Both the position numbers and the translations under genes were made by a program. A stretch of DNA of 64,000 bases from Olivibacter jilunii (GTDB taxonomy: Bacteria; Bacteroidota; Bacteroidia; Sphingobacteriales; Sphingobacteriaceae). The DNA is taken from assembly GCF_900607235.1 (NCBI RefSeq), contig NZ_LR027855.1, positions 1 through 64,000 on the forward strand. The letters run 5' to 3'. A model generated the notes under the pieces. It saw only the letters and a program-made list of their open reading frames with translations. It was not told where the DNA came from and did no database searches. This document shows positions 24,011 through 34,071 of the stretch, one piece after another (positions within the stretch are counted from its first letter, which is position 1; each line of letters begins with the position of its first letter).

Positions 24011-24865
24011 TCAATTCGCGCTTTGATGCTGTTCATTAAGATTTCCTTGGGGAGCCTTTGCGTTTGGCGGATTGGTACCCTGAAGTGATAAAATATAATT
24101 GGCTACTTGTGCTATTTTAGAAGGTGATAACTGCTGCTCCCAAGCGATCATGCCTTTATCGGGCACGCCGCGTTTTATGGTCTTAAATACGTCTTTTATA
24201 CTAGCCCCATGAAGCCAATAATTGTCCGTGAGATTCGGACCGATTCCCCCTTCTCCAACGGCACCATGACAAGCAATACAGTTTTGATCGAAGATCGCCT
24301 TTCCTTCGGCAATTACCTCCGGACTTTTGTCTACTTCAACGGAATTTTCATCCACATTGTCTACTTGGCTCGCTAAATAGGCTTTACGCTCTTGTTCGGC
24401 CACGCGCATTTCCTTCTTATATTCATCGTTCTGATTCATCCCCCAACCAAAAACGTGATAAACGGATAAATAAACGACACCAAATACCATGGTAGCGTAA
24501 AAAAGCCCCATAAACCAGGCGGGTGTTGGATTATCCAATTCCCTGATATCATCATAAGCATGGTCAATTACTAAGTCTTCTTCCTCCGAAAGCGGACGTA
24601 ATCCCATTACATTATTCCACCATTGTTTTAAGTGCGCACGCTTTTCCTTTTGTTTAGCCTTGGTAGCCGCTTTCGCAGCAGCCTCAATTTCAGGCATCAT
24701 CACATGAACAATCGTCTTAAACGCCTTATTTAGTACGATCGCCGCAATTAGCACCGTCAACACCACGATTAACAGGCTTATCAGTAAAACATCCTGATGG
24801 ATATTTCCGCTTCCCCAGCCCCTTTCGGACGTCGCATTATTTATCTGTAATAATAAGTTATTCAT
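24011..24865 (-). CDS. ccoP: cbb3 oxidase subunit CcoP, mono-haem form
   Basis: A 284-residue membrane cytochrome c. Two hydrophobic segments (about 22-46 and 117-139) flank a charged cytoplasmic loop. The PTPAWFMGLFY stretch before the second segment is the CcoP N-terminal domain hallmark. Only one haem c motif, CIACH (about 195), is present, followed by an axial-Met candidate in KGMIAW. Proteobacterial CcoP normally has two haems. The C-terminal tail is low-complexity. It lies ten bases after ccoQ. Confidence 0.92.
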   Translation of the reverse strand: MNNLLLQINNATSERGWGSGNIHQDVLLISLLIVVLTVLIAAIVLNKAFKTIVHVMMPEIEAAAKAATKAKQKEKRAHLKQWWNNVMGLRPLSEEEDLVIDHAYDDIRELDNPTPAWFMGLFYATMVFGVVYLSVYHVFGWGMNQNDEYKKEMRVAEQERKAYLASQVDNVDENSVEVDKSPEVIAEGKAIFDQNCIACHGAVGEGGIGPNLTDNYWLHGASIKDVFKTIKRGVPDKGMIAWEQQLSPSKIAQVANYILSLQGTNPPNAKAPQGNLNEQHQSAN

Positions 24866-25070: not shown

Positions 25071-27182
25071 TTATTTTTCAGTTACTTTTATATCCGTACC
25101 TAACCGTTGTAAGTAAGCTATTATGGCAATAATTTCTCGGTCATTTAGCACGTCTACCTCACTTTGTTTCAAATCGTCTACAATAGATTTCGCTTGCTGT
25201 AGCAGGTCTTTATTTGCGTAATTTTCATACTCCTTCGGGTAGGGAACGCCCAATTTACGCATGGCTGTAATTTTTGCAGCGGTACTCGCCGTATCTATTT
25301 TTTGATTGATCAACCAGGGATAAGGAGGCATAATACTCCCTGGTGAGGTGAGGGTAGGATCTAGCAAATGGTCATAGTGCCATTTATTTGGGTATTTTTT
25401 ACCAACACGATGCAAATCGGGCCCTGTGCGTTTTGATCCCCAAAGAAAGGGGTGGTCATAGACAAATTCGCCCGCCTTACTGTACTCTCCGTATCGAACG
25501 GTTTCTGAGCGAAAGGGACGAACGGTCTGTGAGTGACAATTAACACAACCTTCTCGGATATAAATATCCCGACCTTGCAGTTCTAAAGGCGTGTAGGGCT
25601 TCACGCTACTGATGGTAGGAACATTCGATGAAATCATGAAAGTTGGCATCATTTCAACCATACCACCGATCAGTATAACAATAAGGGCAATGACCATAAA
25701 AAGTGCCGGTTTACGTTCCAGTCTTCTATGAATTGATTTCTCATTCGTATGGACGGGAGGAAGCGCCATCGCTTCTGCCGGTTCATTGGCAATTAATTTC
25801 CCCTTCTGCATGGTACGAATAAGGTTATAGGTCATTAGTAAAGCACCGCTAAGGTATAAAGCACCACCTATTGCCCGCAACATATGCATAGGAAGGATCT
25901 GTAGAGTCGTCGACAGAAAAGTGGGATATTTCAACACACCCTCTGGCGTAAATTCCTTCCACATAAGCCCTTGAACGACCGCGGCCCAGTACATTGGTAT
26001 GGCATAAAAGAGAATACCGAGGGTACCAACCCAAAAATGCACACTAGCCATTTTTTTAGAGTGTAAAGTCGTGCCATATATCTTCGGAATAGCCCAATAT
26101 AAAATGGCAAAGGTCATGAAACCATTCCAACCCAATGCACCTACGTGCACATGTGCTACAATCCAATCGGTAAAGTGCGCAATTGCATTTACCTGTTTTA
26201 AAGAGAGCATCGGTCCTTCAAAAGTTGCCATGCCATAAGCAGTTAGCGCAACCACCATAAATTTTAGAGTAGGTTCCGTACGTACCTTATCCCAAGCACC
26301 TCTCAAGGTCAATAAACCATTAATCATACCGCCCCAGCTTGGAGCGATCAGCATGATTGAAAACACAACACCTAACGATTGGGCCCAACTTGGCAAAGAG
26401 GTATACAGCAAATGGTGTGGCCCGGCCCATATATAGATAAATATGAGCGACCAAAAGTGGAGTATGCTTAGTTTATACGAGTAAACCGGTCTGTTCGCCA
26501 TTTTTGGAAGAAAATAGTACATCATACCTAAATAGGGTGTTGTCAGAAAAAAAGCCACGGCGTTATGGCCATACCACCATTGTACCAGTGCATCTTGTAC
26601 TCCTGCATATAAATAATAACTTTTCCAAGCAGCAATCGGTAATTCAACGGAGTTTACGATATGAAGCACTGCAATCGTTACGAAGGTTGCTATATAAAAC
26701 CAGATGGCAACATACATATGACGCTCGCGTCTTTTGATAATCGTTCCGAACATATTGATGCCAAATACGACCCAGATAAGCGTTATCGCAATGTCAATTG
26801 GCCATTCAAGCTCAGCATATTCGTGTGAAGTGGTGAAACCGAGCGGTAAAGTGATCGCGGCTGCGAGAATAATCAATTGCCAGCCCCAAAAGTGAATACG
26901 GCTCAATAAATCGCTATACATACGGGCCTTGAGAAGGCGCTGTAGGGAGTAGTAGACGCCCATGAAAATTCCGTTACCGACAAAGGCGAAAATAACGGCA
27001 TTGGTATGTAGAGGTCGTATTCTTCCGAAGGTTGTAAAGGGTGTATTAAAATTCATGAAAGGCCAGACTAATTGTACTGCTACGAGAAGTCCGACAGACA
27101 TGCCTACAATTCCCCAGAAAATAGTGGCTATACCAAAATTTCTTACAATTTTGTTATCGTAATTGAATGTTTCAAGCTGCAT
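25071..27182 (-). CDS. ccoNO: Fused cbb3 cytochrome oxidase subunits I and II (CcoN-CcoO)
   Basis: A 703-residue fusion. The N-terminal 470 residues are CcoN, with about twelve membrane helices and the haem b/CuB histidines (including WYGHNAVAF and the HH of GPHHLLY). They are joined to CcoO, which has a membrane anchor (about 495-515) and one haem c motif, CVNCHSQ, near 545. It is the catalytic core of a high-affinity O2-reducing, proton-pumping oxidase. Fusion of N and O is common in Bacteroidota. The upstream gap holds tandem FNR-like dyads. Confidence 0.95.
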   Translation of the reverse strand: MQLETFNYDNKIVRNFGIATIFWGIVGMSVGLLVAVQLVWPFMNFNTPFTTFGRIRPLHTNAVIFAFVGNGIFMGVYYSLQRLLKARMYSDLLSRIHFWGWQLIILAAAITLPLGFTTSHEYAELEWPIDIAITLIWVVFGINMFGTIIKRRERHMYVAIWFYIATFVTIAVLHIVNSVELPIAAWKSYYLYAGVQDALVQWWYGHNAVAFFLTTPYLGMMYYFLPKMANRPVYSYKLSILHFWSLIFIYIWAGPHHLLYTSLPSWAQSLGVVFSIMLIAPSWGGMINGLLTLRGAWDKVRTEPTLKFMVVALTAYGMATFEGPMLSLKQVNAIAHFTDWIVAHVHVGALGWNGFMTFAILYWAIPKIYGTTLHSKKMASVHFWVGTLGILFYAIPMYWAAVVQGLMWKEFTPEGVLKYPTFLSTTLQILPMHMLRAIGGALYLSGALLMTYNLIRTMQKGKLIANEPAEAMALPPVHTNEKSIHRRLERKPALFMVIALIVILIGGMVEMMPTFMISSNVPTISSVKPYTPLELQGRDIYIREGCVNCHSQTVRPFRSETVRYGEYSKAGEFVYDHPFLWGSKRTGPDLHRVGKKYPNKWHYDHLLDPTLTSPGSIMPPYPWLINQKIDTASTAAKITAMRKLGVPYPKEYENYANKDLLQQAKSIVDDLKQSEVDVLNDREIIAIIAYLQRLGTDIKVTEK

Positions 27183-27203: not shown

Positions 27204-27211
27204 TAAAAGTA
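27204..27211 (-). promoter_or_regulatory. Putative -7 box of the ccoNOQPGH operon
   Basis: On the minus strand TACTTTTA matches TAnnTTTG at seven of eight positions and is 21 bp upstream of the ccoNO ATG. With the start about four bases downstream (near 27200), the two dyads upstream would be centred near -40 and -62. Confidence 0.45.
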
Positions 27212-27233: not shown

Positions 27234-27247
27234 GTGATATTGATCGG
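27234..27247. promoter_or_regulatory. FNR/Crp-like dyad, proximal
   Basis: GTGAT-ATTG-ATCGG keeps one intact GTGAT half-site and a degenerate second half with the N4 spacer of FNR-type operators. The centre is 22 bp, two helical turns, from the distal dyad. Confidence 0.45.
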
Positions 27248-27255
27248 ACTAAAAG

Positions 27256-27269
27256 GTGATTGTTATCAC
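27256..27269. promoter_or_regulatory. FNR/Crp-like dyad, distal, perfect palindrome
   Basis: GTGAT-TGTT-ATCAC is a perfect dyad with the TGAT-N4-ATCA core of FNR/FixK operators; the outer base is G/C instead of T/A. It overlaps the ccoS stop codon, directly upstream of ccoNO. The receiver-Crp/Fnr protein encoded at 31792-32835 is the obvious candidate binder. Confidence 0.6.
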
Positions 27270-27463
27270 TTATTTAATTCGCTCTCATCTACCCCTTTTT
27301 CGTTTTCTTGCCCATCGAAAATAACATCATCTTCGAAAAGAATACGTATGGCCGGGGTGTAGGTATCATCGTGTTGTCCATTCTTATTCGCCCAAAAAAA
27401 AGCGCCTAAAAAGAATAACGCGATGAACACACTACAAGCTATCAAAAAGAATATTGCGCTCAT
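27266..27463 (-). CDS. ccoS: cbb3 oxidase maturation protein CcoS
   Basis: A 65-residue protein with one N-terminal membrane helix (about 2-24) ending FWANKNGQHDD, the usual CcoS/FixS pattern, and an acidic tail longer than typical. CcoS is needed for cofactor insertion into cbb3 oxidase. Its start codon overlaps the end of the CcoI gene, so translation is probably coupled. The distal FNR-like dyad overlaps its stop codon. Confidence 0.9.
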   Translation of the reverse strand: MSAIFFLIACSVFIALFFLGAFFWANKNGQHDDTYTPAIRILFEDDVIFDGQENEKGVDESELNK

Positions 27464-29859
27464 TACAAAGTATATTTACGAGCATAAAGCCTGGTTGTCA
27501 AACTGGTGAAACTAATAATGGTGATGGTGCTTAAAGGCATTAAAATCGCAGCTAACAAGGGCGATAGATTGCCTTGTGTCGCGAAATACATACCCACTAT
27601 ATTGTATAGAAGGGAAATAGCAAAACTACAGTAAATAATATGCATTGCTTTTTTTGAAAATCCGAGAAACCGACAGAACTTACTAAAAGATGTTCCGCTC
27701 ATAATGGCATCACAAGCCGGTGAAAAATTATTAACATCATCACTCACCGCTAGTCCTAAATCAGCACACTTGAGGGCTCCTGCATCATTTAAACCATCAC
27801 CGATCATCGCAACTTTTTTTCCATTTTGCTGTAAGCCGCTTATGTAATGCAACTTGTCGGCCGGTAGCTGATTAAAATTCAAATAATCTCGCTGAGGAAA
27901 AATAGACGATAAGGCGCTTGAATCTCGATCAACATCCCCTGATAACAAATGTAGTTCGTACGAACTGCTGAGTGCTTTGATAAGCGATTCCAGTCCATCT
28001 CGCCATTTTTGCTCCATGGAGAAAACACCTCTTACATGTCCACCAATTCGTACATAGGTGCCAGGCCCTTTATAGAACTGCTCATCGGTACCAACAACAA
28101 AAGAATAACTTCCGATTAAAACTTCCTTATTTTTTATGATCGCCCGTATTCCCTTTCCCGGTATTTCAGCATAAGAGCTTATCGGCAACATTTCGCAAGT
28201 ACCCTGTAATGATTGAACTATTTTACGACTGAGTGGATGGTTGGAATTTCGACATACAGAAAACACCATGGATGCTTCCGTAGCTGGCAAGCTACCTTTG
28301 AATGGGAGTTCCTCCTGATGAAGCGTACTGATGGTCCCTGTTTTGTCAAACACCAGCGTGTCGATCCCCGCCATTTTTTCAATAGCCAAGGTATCCTTCA
28401 TAAATAGACCATTCCGATCAAAAACGCTAAGTACCGCTGATAGCGTAAACGGTGAGCTTAAAGCCAGTGCACAGGGACAACCGATAATGAGAACGGCCGT
28501 AAAGGCCGACCATGCTCGCCTGGGTTCGCCTATGTAAAACCAAAAAAATAAGCTTATAAAAGCAATCAATAAGAGAATGGGTGTAAAATAACGACTGATT
28601 TTATTGCTGAACGATTGAAAGGAAACTTGCCCTTTCTTATTTTTCTGATCATTCCAAAGGCTTGTTAAATAACTTTGTGACACGGGTTTCACCACCTCCA
28701 ATTCAATTGCTTGTTCGGTTTGTTTGCCACCTGCATAAATAATTTCGCCAAGTATTTTATCAACAGGGTTTGATTCACCAGTGACAAAACTGAAATCAAT
28801 ACAGGCAGCTCCTTTTAACAAAATCGCATCTGCCGGAATAATTTCATTGTTTCTGATCAAAATACGATCACCAACCTGTAACGCGGACAATGCCACTGTT
28901 TTTTCTTCGCCTGCATCAATTTTGGTAACCGCTACCGGAAAGTAAGATCGGTAGTCTCTTTCAAATGAAAGATGATGATACGTCTTTTGTTGTACCCATC
29001 GCCCAATCAGTAAAAAGAATAGTAAGCCACAAAGTGTATCGGAAAACCCAGCTCCCGAGCCAGTTAAAATCTCCCACACAGAGCGAAGAAAAAGAACGAT
29101 TATACCTAAAGTGAGCGGAATATCTAAGTTTAGACGCCCTTGCCGGATACTTTTAATACTAGAAACGAAATAATCTTGCCCGCTATAGAGCATAATGGGC
29201 AAGGTAAAAAGCAAATTGACAACACCAAATAGCTGGGCATAGTTTCTCTCAAAAGTCCCTAGTCCAAAATACTCCGGAAAACTGATCATCATTGAATTGC
29301 CAAAACAAAAACCCGCAACAGCTATTTTTCTCACCAGTCTATTGCTGTCTTTTTTCTTCCTTTTCGACGATGTGTCTTTCAGGGTAATGATCGGTGCATA
29401 ACCGATTTCTGTGAGTAGTTCAACTAGTTGCTTTAGTTTTATGATGTCGTGGCAAAATGTAATACGTACCTCTTTCCGTAGAAAATCGGCACGTGTGTTG
29501 GTTATACCTCGATGAAGCTTATGAAGTTTTTCCAATAACCATATGCAAGAACTACAATGTATAGTAGGGACATAAAAAGTAACGACGGCTATATGATCAT
29601 CTTTATAGTCCAACAAGCTATTTGCGATGCTTTCATCTGCCAAATAAAAGTACTGGCTCTTATCTTTACGGACGGAGATGCCTGGATGTGTATTGTACTT
29701 GTAATAATGCGTAAGTTTATGCTGGTTTAATACCTGATAAACGCTTTTGCAACCTAAGCAACAGAAATCATGGCCGTCAACCTCATAATTCGCTTTTACA
29801 ACTACGTCACCACAATGGAAACAATGCTGTTCCTTTTGTATGTCCTTAAGCGGGGTCAT
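27463..29859 (-). CDS. ccoI: Copper-transporting P1B-type ATPase CcoI/FixI
   Basis: A 798-residue membrane ATPase that delivers copper towards cbb3 oxidase assembly. The N-terminus has a Cys-rich metal-binding module (C13, C16, C33, C34, C37) and an HMA-like domain with CSSC (C102-C105). The P-type core shows the CPCALALS intramembrane metal site, phosphorylation site DKTGT and the GDGLNDAGAL hinge. The extra N-terminal zinc-ribbon-like module separates CcoI/FixI from CopA at 56807. It starts four bases from the hemN stop. Confidence 0.93.
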   Translation of the reverse strand: MTPLKDIQKEQHCFHCGDVVVKANYEVDGHDFCCLGCKSVYQVLNQHKLTHYYKYNTHPGISVRKDKSQYFYLADESIANSLLDYKDDHIAVVTFYVPTIHCSSCIWLLEKLHKLHRGITNTRADFLRKEVRITFCHDIIKLKQLVELLTEIGYAPIITLKDTSSKRKKKDSNRLVRKIAVAGFCFGNSMMISFPEYFGLGTFERNYAQLFGVVNLLFTLPIMLYSGQDYFVSSIKSIRQGRLNLDIPLTLGIIVLFLRSVWEILTGSGAGFSDTLCGLLFFLLIGRWVQQKTYHHLSFERDYRSYFPVAVTKIDAGEEKTVALSALQVGDRILIRNNEIIPADAILLKGAACIDFSFVTGESNPVDKILGEIIYAGGKQTEQAIELEVVKPVSQSYLTSLWNDQKNKKGQVSFQSFSNKISRYFTPILLLIAFISLFFWFYIGEPRRAWSAFTAVLIIGCPCALALSSPFTLSAVLSVFDRNGLFMKDTLAIEKMAGIDTLVFDKTGTISTLHQEELPFKGSLPATEASMVFSVCRNSNHPLSRKIVQSLQGTCEMLPISSYAEIPGKGIRAIIKNKEVLIGSYSFVVGTDEQFYKGPGTYVRIGGHVRGVFSMEQKWRDGLESLIKALSSSYELHLLSGDVDRDSSALSSIFPQRDYLNFNQLPADKLHYISGLQQNGKKVAMIGDGLNDAGALKCADLGLAVSDDVNNFSPACDAIMSGTSFSKFCRFLGFSKKAMHIIYCSFAISLLYNIVGMYFATQGNLSPLLAAILMPLSTITIISFTSLTTRLYARKYTL

Positions 29860-29862
29860 ATC

Positions 29863-31212
29863 TTATACAGCTTTACTAAATAATGGTTTATTTGCCGTTT
29901 CAGCATGATGATATTCGTCAAAAGCCATACAAATAACGCGTAGGAATGACTTACCAAGATCTGTTACAATCAGTTCTTTTGCTCCAAGTAAAACTAAACC
30001 ATCTGCAATAAGCGGTTTTAGCCTTTTTAGAACTCCCGGTGAACCTTGTACGTCAGACAAAGGAAGCCTACCTTCACACATTAGGCGAAGTATCTGTTTT
30101 TTTACGGAAAGATCGTGCTCCGTTTGTAAATGGCCTTTTTGAAGCGGAAACTGTCCTTTTTCGACCATGCCTCGGTATTCTTCTACTGTTTTTACATTTT
30201 GGGCGTAGGCTGTTCCTACATCACTGATCGCCGAAACACCCAGTCCCAATAGGAGGGAAGGCCTGATATCGGTATACCCCATAAAGTTGCGATGAAGTTT
30301 ACCTACTCTAGCTGCAAGTGCTAAACTATCGGTCGGAAAAGCAAAGTGGTCCATGCCAATATCTATGTAGCCCGCATTTACAATCATCTCCTTTCCAACA
30401 TAATAGAGTTCCAATTTTGCTTCATCCGATGGCAGATCATCTTCCGTATATAGGCGCTGCCCTGGTTTCATCCATGGAACATGCGCATAACTATAAAAAG
30501 CGATTCGATCCGGATGCATAGCGATAGTCATTTGAATGGTGTCTTTAATCCGCAACAAAGATTGCTTTGGTAAGCCATAAATAAGATCAAAATTGATCGA
30601 TGTATAACCGATTCGTCTTGCTTCTTGCGTAACACGAATAACGTCCGCAGGGCTTTGTTTTCTATTGATTATACGTTGCACTTCGGCGTCAAAATCCTGA
30701 ATTCCTAAACTTAAACGTCGAAACCCCAGCGCAAACAATGCATCCAGGTGTTCACGTGTTGTATTTGCAGGGTGGGCTTCAAAAGAAAAAGCTGCATGTT
30801 CATCAACATGCGCATACTGGATAATTTCTTTGATGAGATAGCTTAAGTTCTCCGGACTAAAAAAAGTTGGGGTTCCACCTCCTAAATGAAGATCTACAAT
30901 TTTTGGTTTTACGCTCATTTGTGCCAAATACAGTTGCCATTCTTGAAGTACCGAATCGATATAAGGTCTCTCAACGCTATGATTTTTTGTAATCCGTGTA
31001 TTACAACCACAATAGGTACATAATCGCTCACAGTAGGGTAGATGTATATACAAACTGATTTCACCGGCCACATTAGCGGCAACTCGCATAGCTGATACCC
31101 ACTGGTCAACTGTCCAATCAGTAGTTACCCAATATGGGACAGTCGGATAACTCGTATAACGCGGTGCAGCTATATTATATTTTTTCGCGCAGTTGATCAA
31201 TTGCTTTTCCAT
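29863..31212 (-). CDS. hemN: Oxygen-independent coproporphyrinogen III oxidase
   Basis: A 449-residue radical SAM enzyme that oxidatively decarboxylates coproporphyrinogen III without O2, supplying haem under low oxygen. The cluster cysteines are C61, C65 and C68, plus the family-typical C70 in CERLCTYCGC. HLGGGTPTF follows about 50 residues later, and a HemN C-terminal domain is present. True HemN is distinguished from HemW by the CxxxCxxCxC pattern and the long C-terminus. Its place between the regulators and ccoI fits the classic fix regulon. Confidence 0.94.
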   Translation of the reverse strand: MEKQLINCAKKYNIAAPRYTSYPTVPYWVTTDWTVDQWVSAMRVAANVAGEISLYIHLPYCERLCTYCGCNTRITKNHSVERPYIDSVLQEWQLYLAQMSVKPKIVDLHLGGGTPTFFSPENLSYLIKEIIQYAHVDEHAAFSFEAHPANTTREHLDALFALGFRRLSLGIQDFDAEVQRIINRKQSPADVIRVTQEARRIGYTSINFDLIYGLPKQSLLRIKDTIQMTIAMHPDRIAFYSYAHVPWMKPGQRLYTEDDLPSDEAKLELYYVGKEMIVNAGYIDIGMDHFAFPTDSLALAARVGKLHRNFMGYTDIRPSLLLGLGVSAISDVGTAYAQNVKTVEEYRGMVEKGQFPLQKGHLQTEHDLSVKKQILRLMCEGRLPLSDVQGSPGVLKRLKPLIADGLVLLGAKELIVTDLGKSFLRVICMAFDEYHHAETANKPLFSKAV

Positions 31213-31221
31213 ACTACTTTG

Positions 31222-31653
31222 CTAGATTTCTTCTGTATTATGTTTATTCGTACTAATGCAGTCATGACAGCAACAGGCACGGCCGACACAGCGGCCAGCC
31301 TCCCATAAATCTAAATTGTGAATGGTCTGTTTGGCTGTATTTTCAATCGACTGATCGTTGCTGGGATTATTGGCTACTTTAATACCTAGTTCCGCAGCAC
31401 TTGCTAAGTCGATATGGGCAGTTGATTTCGATCGGGTGATCACATTCTTTACGCCCATTTGTTTGAGAGAAATAAGTAAGGACTTGTCCAAAACATCTGT
31501 TCCGGAAATAATAATAACAGTCTTTCCTGCGCAATAAGGTAGAGTGGAAGCATTCAACGCATTCGAAATAAGCGTTAAATCATGCGTTTTGGCATTTGAT
31601 CGAACAAGGTGTTCTTTTTCATCGACATTTATACTGTAAGCGGTGGCTTTCAT
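31222..31653 (-). CDS. Small protein related to the N-terminus of D-2-hydroxyacid dehydrogenases, Cys-rich tail
   Basis: A 143-residue protein. Residues 1-100 resemble the first part of the catalytic domain of D-lactate dehydrogenase-type enzymes, ending in IDLASAAELGIKVANNP, but the NAD-binding domain and catalytic Arg/Glu/His are absent. Residues 120-132 hold five cysteines and a histidine (C122, C127, C128, C129, H130, C132), likely a metal or redox site. It is the first gene after the promoter at 31692-31699 and lies nine bases before hemN, so it belongs to the microaerobic operon. Function unknown. A perfect reading frame and good operon spacing argue against a decaying pseudogene. Confidence 0.7.
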   Translation of the reverse strand: MKATAYSINVDEKEHLVRSNAKTHDLTLISNALNASTLPYCAGKTVIIISGTDVLDKSLLISLKQMGVKNVITRSKSTAHIDLASAAELGIKVANNPSNDQSIENTAKQTIHNLDLWEAGRCVGRACCCHDCISTNKHNTEEI

Positions 31654-31725: not shown

Positions 31726-31775
31726 ATCCTGTCATACAAAAAAGTAATATTCATTACTTTTTTGTATGACAGGAT
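31726..31775. terminator. Perfect 23-bp hairpin after the regulator genes
   Basis: Two perfect 23-nt arms (31726-31748 and 31753-31775) with a 4-nt loop. They include A6/T6 tracts that give a U-run near the stem top in either direction. It lies 17 bases beyond the stop of the receiver-Crp gene and before the hemN-operon promoter, so it most likely ends the sensor-regulator transcript. Confidence 0.7.
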
Positions 31776-31791
31776 AAACACACTTCAATAA

Positions 31792-32835
31792 TTATTGTTT
31801 AATGGTACTCAGCTTAGAAATGGAATGAATACGAATTGCATTCCCCTCTTTTGAAAGTAATTTTTCCTCTTTAAAATCCGCTAAGGTCCGGCTAATCGTT
31901 TCATTAGCTGTTCCCGCGAGGGCTGCCAGATCATCCCTGGAAATACGGATCACACATTCGTCGGCATTTTGGTCTCCTAAAAATTTTTTCGATACAACCA
32001 CCAAGGCATCGGCAACCCTTTTTCGTACGGTGTGATAGGCCAACCGTAATAATTGCTCCTCCTTTTCCCGTATGTTTTCAGAAAGTAAACCAATAAATTT
32101 CTGAGCAATGGCCGGATTTTGGTATAGCAGCTCAAAAAATACATCCTTATTAATCAAACATAGTTCCGTTTCCTCAATCGTTTGGGTATTATCAGAATAT
32201 TTTTCGTGTGCCAAAAGTGCCTCATAACCAAAGTAATCCCCCGTTGTAAAGATATTAGTAGATAATTCGCGTCCATCATGATAAAAGAGATAGCTCCTAA
32301 CTTTTCCGGATTTAACCTTGTAGATATAAAGTGGTTTATCCCCTTCCTCATAAATGCTCTGCTTTTTTTTATAATTTTTTGCCCTTCCTTTAAGATGCAA
32401 ATCGTTGAGGAGATGATTTTGATCTTCTTCACTTGCTATATGCAAGGGCTTCCTTTTATCAGTAATCTCCTTCTTTCTAAGTCTCGTTTCGATCGCATTA
32501 AGCAATTCTACATCATCAAAAGGTTTCGTCAGGTAATCATCGGCCCCCATTTCCATTGCTTTTCGCATATCGGCACGCTCTGCCTTTGCTGTAAGGAAAA
32601 TAAAGGGAATGCTTGCAGTTTCCTGATGCTTTCCTAACAGGAACAAAACACCGTAACCATCCAGGTTAGGCATCATAATATCGCAAAGTATAATATCAGG
32701 TTTATTTTTTAGCGCCAGTTCAACACCTGATCTGCCTTCTGTAGCACTAAACACCCGATACCCGGCCAGTTCCAAAATCTCCACTGTGCTTTCTCTAAAA
32801 TCATCGTTATCTTCAATGATCAATACGTTTTTCAT
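31792..32835 (-). CDS. Response regulator: receiver fused to Crp/Fnr cNMP-binding and HTH domains
   Basis: A 347-residue fusion. The receiver (about 1-120) has E8/D9/D11, phospho-acceptor D52 in CDIMMPN, and K104. A Crp/Fnr beta-roll (about 145-255) and dimerisation helix follow, then an HTH (about 295-345) with recognition helix NETISRTLADF. E312, S315 and R316 reproduce the E--SR pattern that lets FNR and FixK read TTGAT. The N-terminal cysteine cluster of FNR is missing (only C51, C226 and C294), so direct Fe-S O2 sensing is unlikely. I infer control by phosphorylation from the adjacent FixL-like kinase. It would regulate the neighbouring cco and hemN genes. Confidence 0.92.
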   Translation of the reverse strand: MKNVLIIEDNDDFRESTVEILELAGYRVFSATEGRSGVELALKNKPDIILCDIMMPNLDGYGVLFLLGKHQETASIPFIFLTAKAERADMRKAMEMGADDYLTKPFDDVELLNAIETRLRKKEITDKRKPLHIASEEDQNHLLNDLHLKGRAKNYKKKQSIYEEGDKPLYIYKVKSGKVRSYLFYHDGRELSTNIFTTGDYFGYEALLAHEKYSDNTQTIEETELCLINKDVFFELLYQNPAIAQKFIGLLSENIREKEEQLLRLAYHTVRKRVADALVVVSKKFLGDQNADECVIRISRDDLAALAGTANETISRTLADFKEEKLLSKEGNAIRIHSISKLSTIKQ

Positions 32836-32883: not shown

Positions 32884-34071
32884 TTAATTTTTAAAGATCA
32901 ATGTAAAAGTCGTTCCTTTATTAACTTCGCTCTTACACATTACTTCACCTTTCATTAAATGTACGTATCGCTTTACGATATTCAATCCAAGCCCCGTCCC
33001 TGGAATATTTCCTGTGTTATTCGCTCTAAAAAAGGGTTCAAACAGGTTTTTTTGTTCATCAAATGGAATTCCTATCCCATTATCTTTGATCGTAATAATA
33101 CAGGAATCTCCGTTTATTTCGCTATTAAACTCAATAAACGTGTTTTCACCCGAATATTTAATAGCGTTTGAAATGAGATTAAGAATGCTATTCTTAAGAA
33201 GATTTGGGTCGATCCGAAATTTGCCAATCTCGCCGGTATGCTGGTAAACAATATGTTGATTCTGCTTTGCCAAAAGCTGCATTTCTTCAATAATATCTTC
33301 TGCTAATCTGATTAAATTGACTTCTTCCTCAACAGCAGTGACTTTTCCTGCTTCCAGACGTTCCAAGGATAGAAAATCGTTGAGAATATTCGTAAGCAAT
33401 TGAACGGACCCTTTAATTTTGTTCGTATGCTTGGTAATATTATCAAAATCATGTTTGTCCAGATACTTTTCAATTAAAGATGCTGAAAGTTGTACGGAGC
33501 TAAGGGGAGTTCTAAATTCATGAGAAGCCATAGAAACAAATCGGGATTTCATTTGGTTAAGATCCTTTTCCTTTTCTAAAGATAGGCTAACATCCGCTTT
33601 AGCTTCCTCTAACTCACCAATCAGTTTAATAAGATCCTTGGTTCGTTCTGTAACCTTCATCTCTAGTTCCGCGGTATATTCTTTCAATTTCTCTTCAGCC
33701 TCTTTTTGCTTAGAAAGATCATGAATAAAACCCGTAAAGATTTTCCGATCTTTATAATTCACTTCACTTACTGCTAAACGAAACGGAAAGGTCGTCCCAT
33801 CTCGACGTTTTCCTCTTACTTCACGACCTATTCCTATAATATGTTTTACACCGGTCGTCAGGTAATTGTGGATATATGAATCGTGCCGACTGCGGTCGGG
33901 TTCGGGCATTAACATCGAGATATTATTACCAATGATTTCGCTGTTATCGGAGTAACCGAATAAGGCCATAGCAGCCGGATTGATTGACTCTACAATCCCT
34001 TTGTTGTCAATTGTAATAATACCATCAATCGCATTGCGAATAATCGCCTCAAGTAATTTCCCTGTTTCCAT
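32884..34071 (-). CDS. FixL-like haem-PAS oxygen-sensor histidine kinase (predicted)
   Basis: A 395-residue cytoplasmic kinase with no membrane segment. The PAS domain (about 5-120) carries the FixL-type run MLMPEPDRSRHDSYI, then HIIGIGR and FTGFIHDL. By alignment from memory to Bradyrhizobium FixL, H63 corresponds to the haem-ligating H200, H77 to H214 and R83 to the O2-contacting R220. A coiled coil (about 121-175) leads to the HisKA H-box (MASHEFRTPL, H184), then the HATPase domain with NLISNAIKYS, DNGIGIP and GTGLGLNI. It is followed 48 bases later by the receiver-Crp regulator, a natural pair. Haem binding is inferred, not shown. Confidence 0.88.
   Translation of the reverse strand: METGKLLEAIIRNAIDGIITIDNKGIVESINPAAMALFGYSDNSEIIGNNISMLMPEPDRSRHDSYIHNYLTTGVKHIIGIGREVRGKRRDGTTFPFRLAVSEVNYKDRKIFTGFIHDLSKQKEAEEKLKEYTAELEMKVTERTKDLIKLIGELEEAKADVSLSLEKEKDLNQMKSRFVSMASHEFRTPLSSVQLSASLIEKYLDKHDFDNITKHTNKIKGSVQLLTNILNDFLSLERLEAGKVTAVEEEVNLIRLAEDIIEEMQLLAKQNQHIVYQHTGEIGKFRIDPNLLKNSILNLISNAIKYSGENTFIEFNSEINGDSCIITIKDNGIGIPFDEQKNLFEPFFRANNTGNIPGTGLGLNIVKRYVHLMKGEVMCKSEVNKGTTFTLIFKN

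Follow-up and report, generated by a model that had tools for sequence, protein, structure and literature searches.

Does one protein that joins a response-regulator receiver to a Crp/Fnr module carry the oxygen signal from a FixL-like kinase to the cbb3 oxidase genes? The question arises from a 64,000-nucleotide stretch of Olivibacter jilunii contig NZ_LR027855.1 (the window), in which a sequence-only reading described such a fusion as FixJ and FixK merged. The frame occupies exactly 31792–32835 on the minus strand, a strand which that reading left out, and the plus strand of the same interval holds 13 stop codons. Pfam confirms the joined modules in the 347-residue translation with three matches, all above the curated cut-offs and all on the minus strand: Response_reg at residues 4–116 (8.4e-29; 32488–32826), cNMP_binding at 153–239 (3.4e-17; 32119–32379), and HTH_Crp_2 at 273–343 (3e-13; 31807–32019). 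The closest named relative is in Olivibacter sp. XZL3 (L009; 84%). Just past the fusion stop codon, at 31733–31783, CCTGTCATACAAAAAAGTAAT and its complement form a long inverted repeat that is nearly perfect and is perhaps a terminator.

The receiver has the complete response-regulator set, E8 and D9, D52, T82, and K104. The residues singled out earlier (D52 and K104, with E312, S315, and R316 in the helix-turn-helix) are all correct in the translation. Alignment of 93 fusions, the window's included, finds D52 in 92 and K104, E312, and R316 in all 93. Position 315 is Ser in 56, Ile in 34, and another residue in 3; the window fusion and all 44 named loci have Ser. Ser315 was rejected as a mark of FixL partners: FixL-like kinases also accompany L120 and L147 (Ile) and L148 (Thr), and L128 combines Ser with no such kinase. 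The sequence-only reading was right that Fe-S cysteines are missing; the window fusion has three scattered Cys and no Fnr-type cluster, and 80 of the 93 fusions have one or two Cys. It had also left room for control by a bound nucleotide. Crp contacts cAMP through a Glu and an Arg. The alignment places Y204 and Y213 at these positions, so the cNMP-binding fold lacks both contacts of the cAMP pocket, and Arg213 occurs in none of the 93 aligned fusions. These residues make cAMP control of the fusion unlikely.

A literal merger of FixJ and FixK finds no support. FixJ is absent among the best 25 of the 107 NCBIfam models matching the receiver, which include CseB, PhoB, PleD, and others, and the output domain is HTH_Crp_2 rather than the LuxR-type helix-turn-helix of FixJ. 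The Crp half scores 79 bits with FixK (NF050806, cut-off 300) and 85 bits with Fnr. As a protein family, the fusion is neither FixJ nor FixK nor Fnr. An AlphaFold2 model from 26 sequences (pLDDT 83.5, pTM 0.43) consists of a receiver, a weak linker at 127–132, and a Crp-like half; at this pTM the domains can be trusted and their arrangement cannot. The best Foldseek matches to the predicted structure are Crp and Fnr structures.

The fusion gene directly follows the gene for a FixL-like PAS-HisKA-HATPase kinase (395 residues; 32884–34071, minus strand), as the sequence-only reading stated, with a gap of 48 bp. Kinase residues 7–131 match the PAS domains of solved FixL structures with E values of 6.9e-35 and 7.8e-35. 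The segments MPEPDRSRHDSYI, HIIGIGR, and GKRRDGTTFP are identical in FixL PAS, and 13 of 13 residues around the haem-ligand His are identical in Bradyrhizobium FixL, so that the likeness extends over the whole haem pocket. We take H63 to be the equivalent of the haem-ligand His and R83 that of FixL R220, the distal Arg, which is also present in the window PAS; the phospho-acceptor is H184. The full-length FixL model NF041777, which was built on the longer rhizobial protein, gives 174.5 bits against a cut-off of 850. The haem-ligand His is present in 83 of 84 aligned kinases adjoining fusions (the window's included), and the distal Arg in 42 of the 43 named-locus kinases, L048 being the exception. 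Outside this family, the kinases that adjoin fusions frequently look less like FixL, so that the His by itself is no proof of haem. The likeness to FixL suggests that the window kinase binds haem and would be inhibited by O2.

Downstream of the fusion, and in the same direction, lie a 143-residue frame, hemN, ccoI, ccoS, ccoNO, a small frame, and ccoP. The 143-residue frame (31222–31653) opens the hemN unit, and Pfam and comparison of relatives mark it as an apparent D-2-hydroxyacid dehydrogenase remnant with a cysteine-rich tail. hemN (29863–31212) scores above the TIGR00538 cut-off. The P-type ATPase gene at 27463–29859 is ccoI-like by Pfam and NCBIfam and presumably deserves that name. ccoS (27266–27463) matches Pfam FixS at 1.8e-20, ccoNO (25071–27182) encodes fused cbb3 subunits I/II by Pfam and NCBIfam, and ccoP (24011–24865) is identified by Pfam and falls under the NCBIfam ccoP cut-off. 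All are on the minus strand, and the order kinase, fusion, 143-residue frame, hemN, ccoI recurs across the named loci. Compared at L103, L105, and L106, the 143-residue frame resembles the dehydrogenase minus its NAD domain. Most relatives have 138–157 residues, L103 has a full 347-residue D-2-hydroxyacid dehydrogenase in its place, and many carry a C-terminal cysteine cluster such as KCVGKACCC..DC.

Genome samples were used to determine how common the fusion is and what it accompanies. A sample of 296 phylum genomes holds 49 full-length homologous fusions (E ≤ 1e-35), spread over 43 genomes that all belong to the window's class, so the joining is not chance. Outside Bacteroidota, a search of 349 genomes from the phylum of L068 (Vreelandella, which we take for Pseudomonadota), with six candidates scored per listed genome, found no match of full length at E ≤ 1e-28. 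Six plasmid records reached 80% cover or more, and all belong to Hymenobacter, Spirosoma, or Runella. A tree of 82 Crp halves, rooted on one other Crp of the window genome, separates a group of 57 fusions (support 0.85) from one of 24 stand-alone cco-linked Crps (support 0.90), the pattern expected from one origin of the fusion.

The sequence-only reading proposed to test whether such fusions always neighbour FixL-like kinases and cbb3 genes. A family sample of 81 genomes, assigned to Sphingobacteriaceae on the strength of the named loci, holds 62 fusions in 49 genomes and 49 FixL-type kinase genes (E ≤ 1e-95) in 47. The kinase half of this rule stands for the 48 of these 49 kinase genes that have a fusion within 150 bp. 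It fails for fusions without FixL in two family genomes (G320, G346) and for seven of 92 fusions; a distance rule gave no kinase for nine, of which L051 and L106 actually have an overlapping one. The cbb3 half stands for 30 of the 42 family genomes with FixL, fusion, and ccoNO, where the fusion lies within 10 kb of ccoNO; the distance is 21–23 kb in three, and the fusion is not near ccoNO in nine. It fails elsewhere. A ccoNO match (1e-100) is absent in 5 of the 43 phylum genomes with the fusion, 5 of the 27 family genomes that lack a ccoNO match have FixL and fusion, and some fusions adjoin other genes (phosphoenolpyruvate enzyme, Hsp20, MBL-type RNase, or cation ATPase, L108 included). The fusion is widespread in the class and some copies stand beside other genes, which in part bears out what the sequence-only reading had named as refuting it.

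The window genome itself has one FixL-type kinase at E ≤ 1e-95 and two further fusions, C2:416123 (48%) and C9:105192 (31%), neither with a kinase match within about 10 kb. C9:105192 (L149, G000) has Asn at the phospho-acceptor position of D52, Gly for E8, and Lys for T82, and is probably a pseudo-receiver. The C2 fusion (L201/L116) stands without an adjacent kinase in an island (G000 C2:412495–417166) of zinc alcohol dehydrogenase, Usp, cation P-type ATPase, and MBL-type RNase, and between the dehydrogenase and Usp genes lies a box whose partner, 22 bp off, has one mismatch. Since the genome has one FixL-type kinase, our guess is that the orphan C2 fusion might share it.

Other cco operons are accompanied by a different regulator. 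A stand-alone Crp is encoded within 5 kb upstream of the cco operon in 24 of 40 genomes examined, and eight of these proteins, when aligned, share four invariant Cys (C10, C13, C59, C112) that point to an Fe-S Fnr. The 54 family genomes with ccoNO divide into 42 with FixL and fusion and 12 with the stand-alone cysteine Fnr (scored at E ≤ 1e-80, two of the 12, G303 and G332, being incomplete with partial ccoNO); none has both and none has neither. The 12 Fnr genomes are the most distant in CcoNO identity, 66–75% compared to at least 77% in the others, so one switch may explain the whole exclusion. Outside the family, G222, G174, G025, and G210 have a FixL-like kinase and fusion alongside a cysteine-type Crp near ccoNO. 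None of 18 further stand-alone Crps taken from FixL genomes shows the four-Cys pattern (two of two controls do), and 17 of the 18 have a cysteine-rich N terminus of another type. This second kind of stand-alone Crp (L283–L299), which starts like C-x4-C-F-x-C, is a possible Fe-S sensor.

The ccoNO and hemN promoters of genomes with the kinase and fusion carry Crp/Fnr-type operators in fixed geometry. In the window, operator 1 (TGATAACAATCA, 27257–27268, minus strand) has the flanks GTGAT...ATCAC and overlaps the ccoS stop codon, and operator 2 (CGATCAATATCA, 27235–27246, minus strand) has one mismatch and lies exactly 22 bp on. A sigma-A −7 type element, TACTTTTA (27204–27211, minus strand), is at +57 from operator 1. 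The element TAnnTTTG occupies −12 to −5 in Flavobacterium psychrophilum (PMC9723704). Applied here, that position predicts a start at about 27199 and centres operator 1 at −63.5 (or −64.5) and operator 2 at −41.5. Two further boxes in the window fall inside genes, and a search of the window for TTGAC/TTGAT boxes found no exact TTGAT-N4-ATCAA.

The same geometry recurs in other FixL genomes, where GTGAY-N4-RTCAY boxes stand before ccoNO and the hemN unit. The core TGAY-N4-RTCA, which was derived from the hemN unit, is found ahead of that unit in 43 of 49 loci, ahead of ccoNO in 7 of 18, and ahead of the kinase gene in 24 of 87, compared to 1.0, 0.3, and 2.4 expected from shuffles; L122, L135, and L139 are inside the 49-locus count and left out of the hemN-unit counts of the element and the flank base given below. 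Counting perfect 5-bp palindromes blindly ahead of ccoNO gave no signal. The window's own hemN-unit promoter has a one-mismatch site only, and the exact box is missing in 9 of 38 ccoNO promoters of FixL genomes (the 42 minus G099, G261, G214, and G122), several Parapedobacter among them. With boxes de-duplicated by sequence, the element TAnnTTT[GA] lies at +57/+58 from 43 of 43 hemN-unit boxes and 28 of 30 ccoNO boxes. A weaker second site follows at +22 from 26 of 44 hemN-unit boxes (10 more at +23) and 18 of 30 ccoNO boxes, against a background averaging 0.8–0.9 per spacing, which gives it a predicted centre of −41.5.

Fnr-type ccoNO promoters share the core and differ in flank and geometry. 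Their element lies at 35/36 in 20 of 24 class promoters and at 35 in 6 of 12 family promoters, which puts the box itself, mostly a single ATGAY box, at −41.5. These promoters are upstream of a ccoS-like frame in 25 of 26 cases and the window's is between ccoS and ccoNO, so neither is merely a shifted copy of the other. In de-duplicated boxes, G comes before TGAY at 48 of 57 sites of FixL genomes; of 45 Fnr sites, none has G and 38 have A. Fisher tests on these flank counts and on the box and element counts ignore relatedness. Several simpler descriptions were rejected. Among the 28 ccoNO boxes whose element is at 57/58, three, one of them in the window, owe the G flank to the ccoS stop codon, and 23 of the other 25 have G (the hemN part of this check was also de-duplicated). 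The 22-bp pair is not private to FixL genomes, occurring in 2 of 11 family and 3 of 24 class Fnr promoters. The +35 element is not in every Fnr promoter; 2 of 12 family ccoNO promoters have it at 57, and 0 of 22 ccoI boxes have it at +35. Another 13 ccoNO promoters of Fnr genomes include three with the exact box and show no element at a fixed distance. Outside the family, the 84 strand-oriented boxes of S315-fusion loci include 6 with the element at 35 and 5 with it at 57. In Ile315-fusion loci (L107–L147), TAnnTTT[GA] stands at +35 in 67 of 364 strand-oriented TGAY-N4-RTCA boxes, compared to an average of 1.8 per offset; this arrangement is a frequent promoter type there.

The box alone does not prove that the fusion reads it, as the same core is found at promoters near the cysteine Crp. 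Box and element are present in 13 of 19 FixL-genome ccoNO promoters without a stand-alone Crp (E ≤ 1e-40) and in 15 of 19 of the others. Their retention without a stand-alone Crp favors the fusion as the reader and is not proof. The kinase pairing (48 of 49), the exclusion (42/12/0/0), and the operator geometry together suggest that FixL and the receiver-Crp fusion probably replace Fnr as the cbb3 oxygen switch in Sphingobacteriaceae.

The gene pair, the haem-pocket residues, the intact receiver and recognition helix, the operator geometry, and the Fnr exclusion, all read from sequence, make it likely that the haem-PAS kinase and the fusion form a two-protein oxygen switch for the cbb3 oxidase, as a stand-in for Fnr. 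Oxygen would bind to the haem and inhibit the kinase; as oxygen drops, the kinase would autophosphorylate at H184 and pass the phosphate to D52 of the fusion. The phosphorylated fusion would bind the GTGAY-N4-RTCAY operators, through a strong site at about −63.5 and a weaker one at about −41.5, and activate ccoNO(QP) and, in relatives, also the hemN unit. The outcome would be cbb3 and haem synthesis switched on at low oxygen, with the pair standing in for a stand-alone, probably Fe-S, Fnr in the window's family. In F. psychrophilum, cbb3 and haem-synthesis genes are up under oxygen limitation (PMC9723704). More tentatively, displacement of Fnr by the kinase and fusion may have gone with rebuilt promoters, in which a G-flanked operator at about −63.5 and a weak partner two helical turns on at −41.5 would take two Crp dimers held by phosphorylated receivers.

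Other readings were weighed against this switch. The −41.5 site might be repressing or vestigial, with a single dimer at −63.5 acting alone. In most cases the second site is degenerate, and often one of its halves is good; of the two anaeroboxes of Rhizobium fnrN, the proximal one represses (PMC7888657). However, two unrelated promoters keep the 22-bp spacing within the same genomes, and where other fusion genomes have no Fnr at cco, 8 of 10 of their ccoNO promoters keep it as well; Fnr-type ccoNO promoters by their geometry use −41.5 too. We regard a non-activating site as rather doubtful. A smaller chance attaches to the idea that the fusion mainly drives a broader response to oxygen limitation or stress (Usp, Hsp20, MBL-type RNase, cation ATPase, and alcohol dehydrogenase), with cbb3 and hemN as minor targets or under another Crp. 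Its close linkage to ccoNO in most such family genomes, its exclusion of the cco-type Fnr, and the persistence of promoter boxes where no stand-alone Crp was found speak against this, even though three f4/g9 genomes (taken for Flavobacterium by likeness to the named L048) have FixL and fusion in such an island and a cysteine Fnr at cco. The C2 paralogue with its box pair also fits this broader response, as does the further cysteine-bearing Crp of many FixL genomes, which might sense oxygen too.

It is improbable that the kinase senses redox state or a signal other than oxygen through a PAS domain that only looks like FixL. A His at the haem-ligand position is common among PAS domains, and it is kept in neighbouring kinases lacking other FixL features, but the window PAS equals FixL across the haem-proximal helix and has the distal Arg. 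A strict-box reading of the regulon in the window genome was rejected: it covered 20 stretches, picked out of 99 strand-oriented matches, and 14 of their 22 boxes are inside genes.

The work done by this pair resembles that of the rhizobial FixL-FixJ-FixK and hFixL-FxkR-FixK cascades, which share the haem-PAS kinase, the phosphorylated regulator, the Crp/Fnr-type activator, cbb3 (fixNOQP) as target, and the Fnr-type palindrome (PMC7888657). In contrast to them, receiver and Crp are in one chain without a separate fixK transcription step, the receiver is not FixJ-like, and the box is GTGAY with a partner site 22 bp on, not TTGAT. Unlike FixK, the fusion is not stand-alone. It shares the Crp/Fnr fold and the E-x-x-S-R recognition residues with rhizobial FnrN and E. 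coli Fnr, and a receiver takes the place of their Fe-S cysteines. The four-Cys stand-alone Crp/Fnr at cco of other Bacteroidota has the same fold, core, and target operon, whereas it lacks a receiver, presumably senses directly through its Cys, has Ile at the S315 place in eight aligned proteins, and goes with A-flanked promoters upstream of ccoS, mostly with one box at −41.5. The cyclic-AMP receptor proteins Crp and GlxR are the nearest solved folds, and their cAMP contacts are missing in the fusion. Titles and abstract starts listed by searches of an open-access library yielded no mention of the fusion, the chain order, the exclusion with the cysteine Crp, or the operator pair; the domain order may have been mentioned earlier.

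The simplest reading is that one phosphotransfer replaces transcription by FixJ and then FixK, and, if true, the FixL-FixJ-FixK relay is shortened to that single step. The family then offers a natural experiment in which related bacteria run the same enzyme by a haem kinase or by a cysteine Fnr, and operator flank and geometry vary with the regulator. The two regulators are expected to respond at different oxygen levels, as in Rhizobium, where hFixL works at 1% oxygen and FnrN close to anoxia (PMC7888657).
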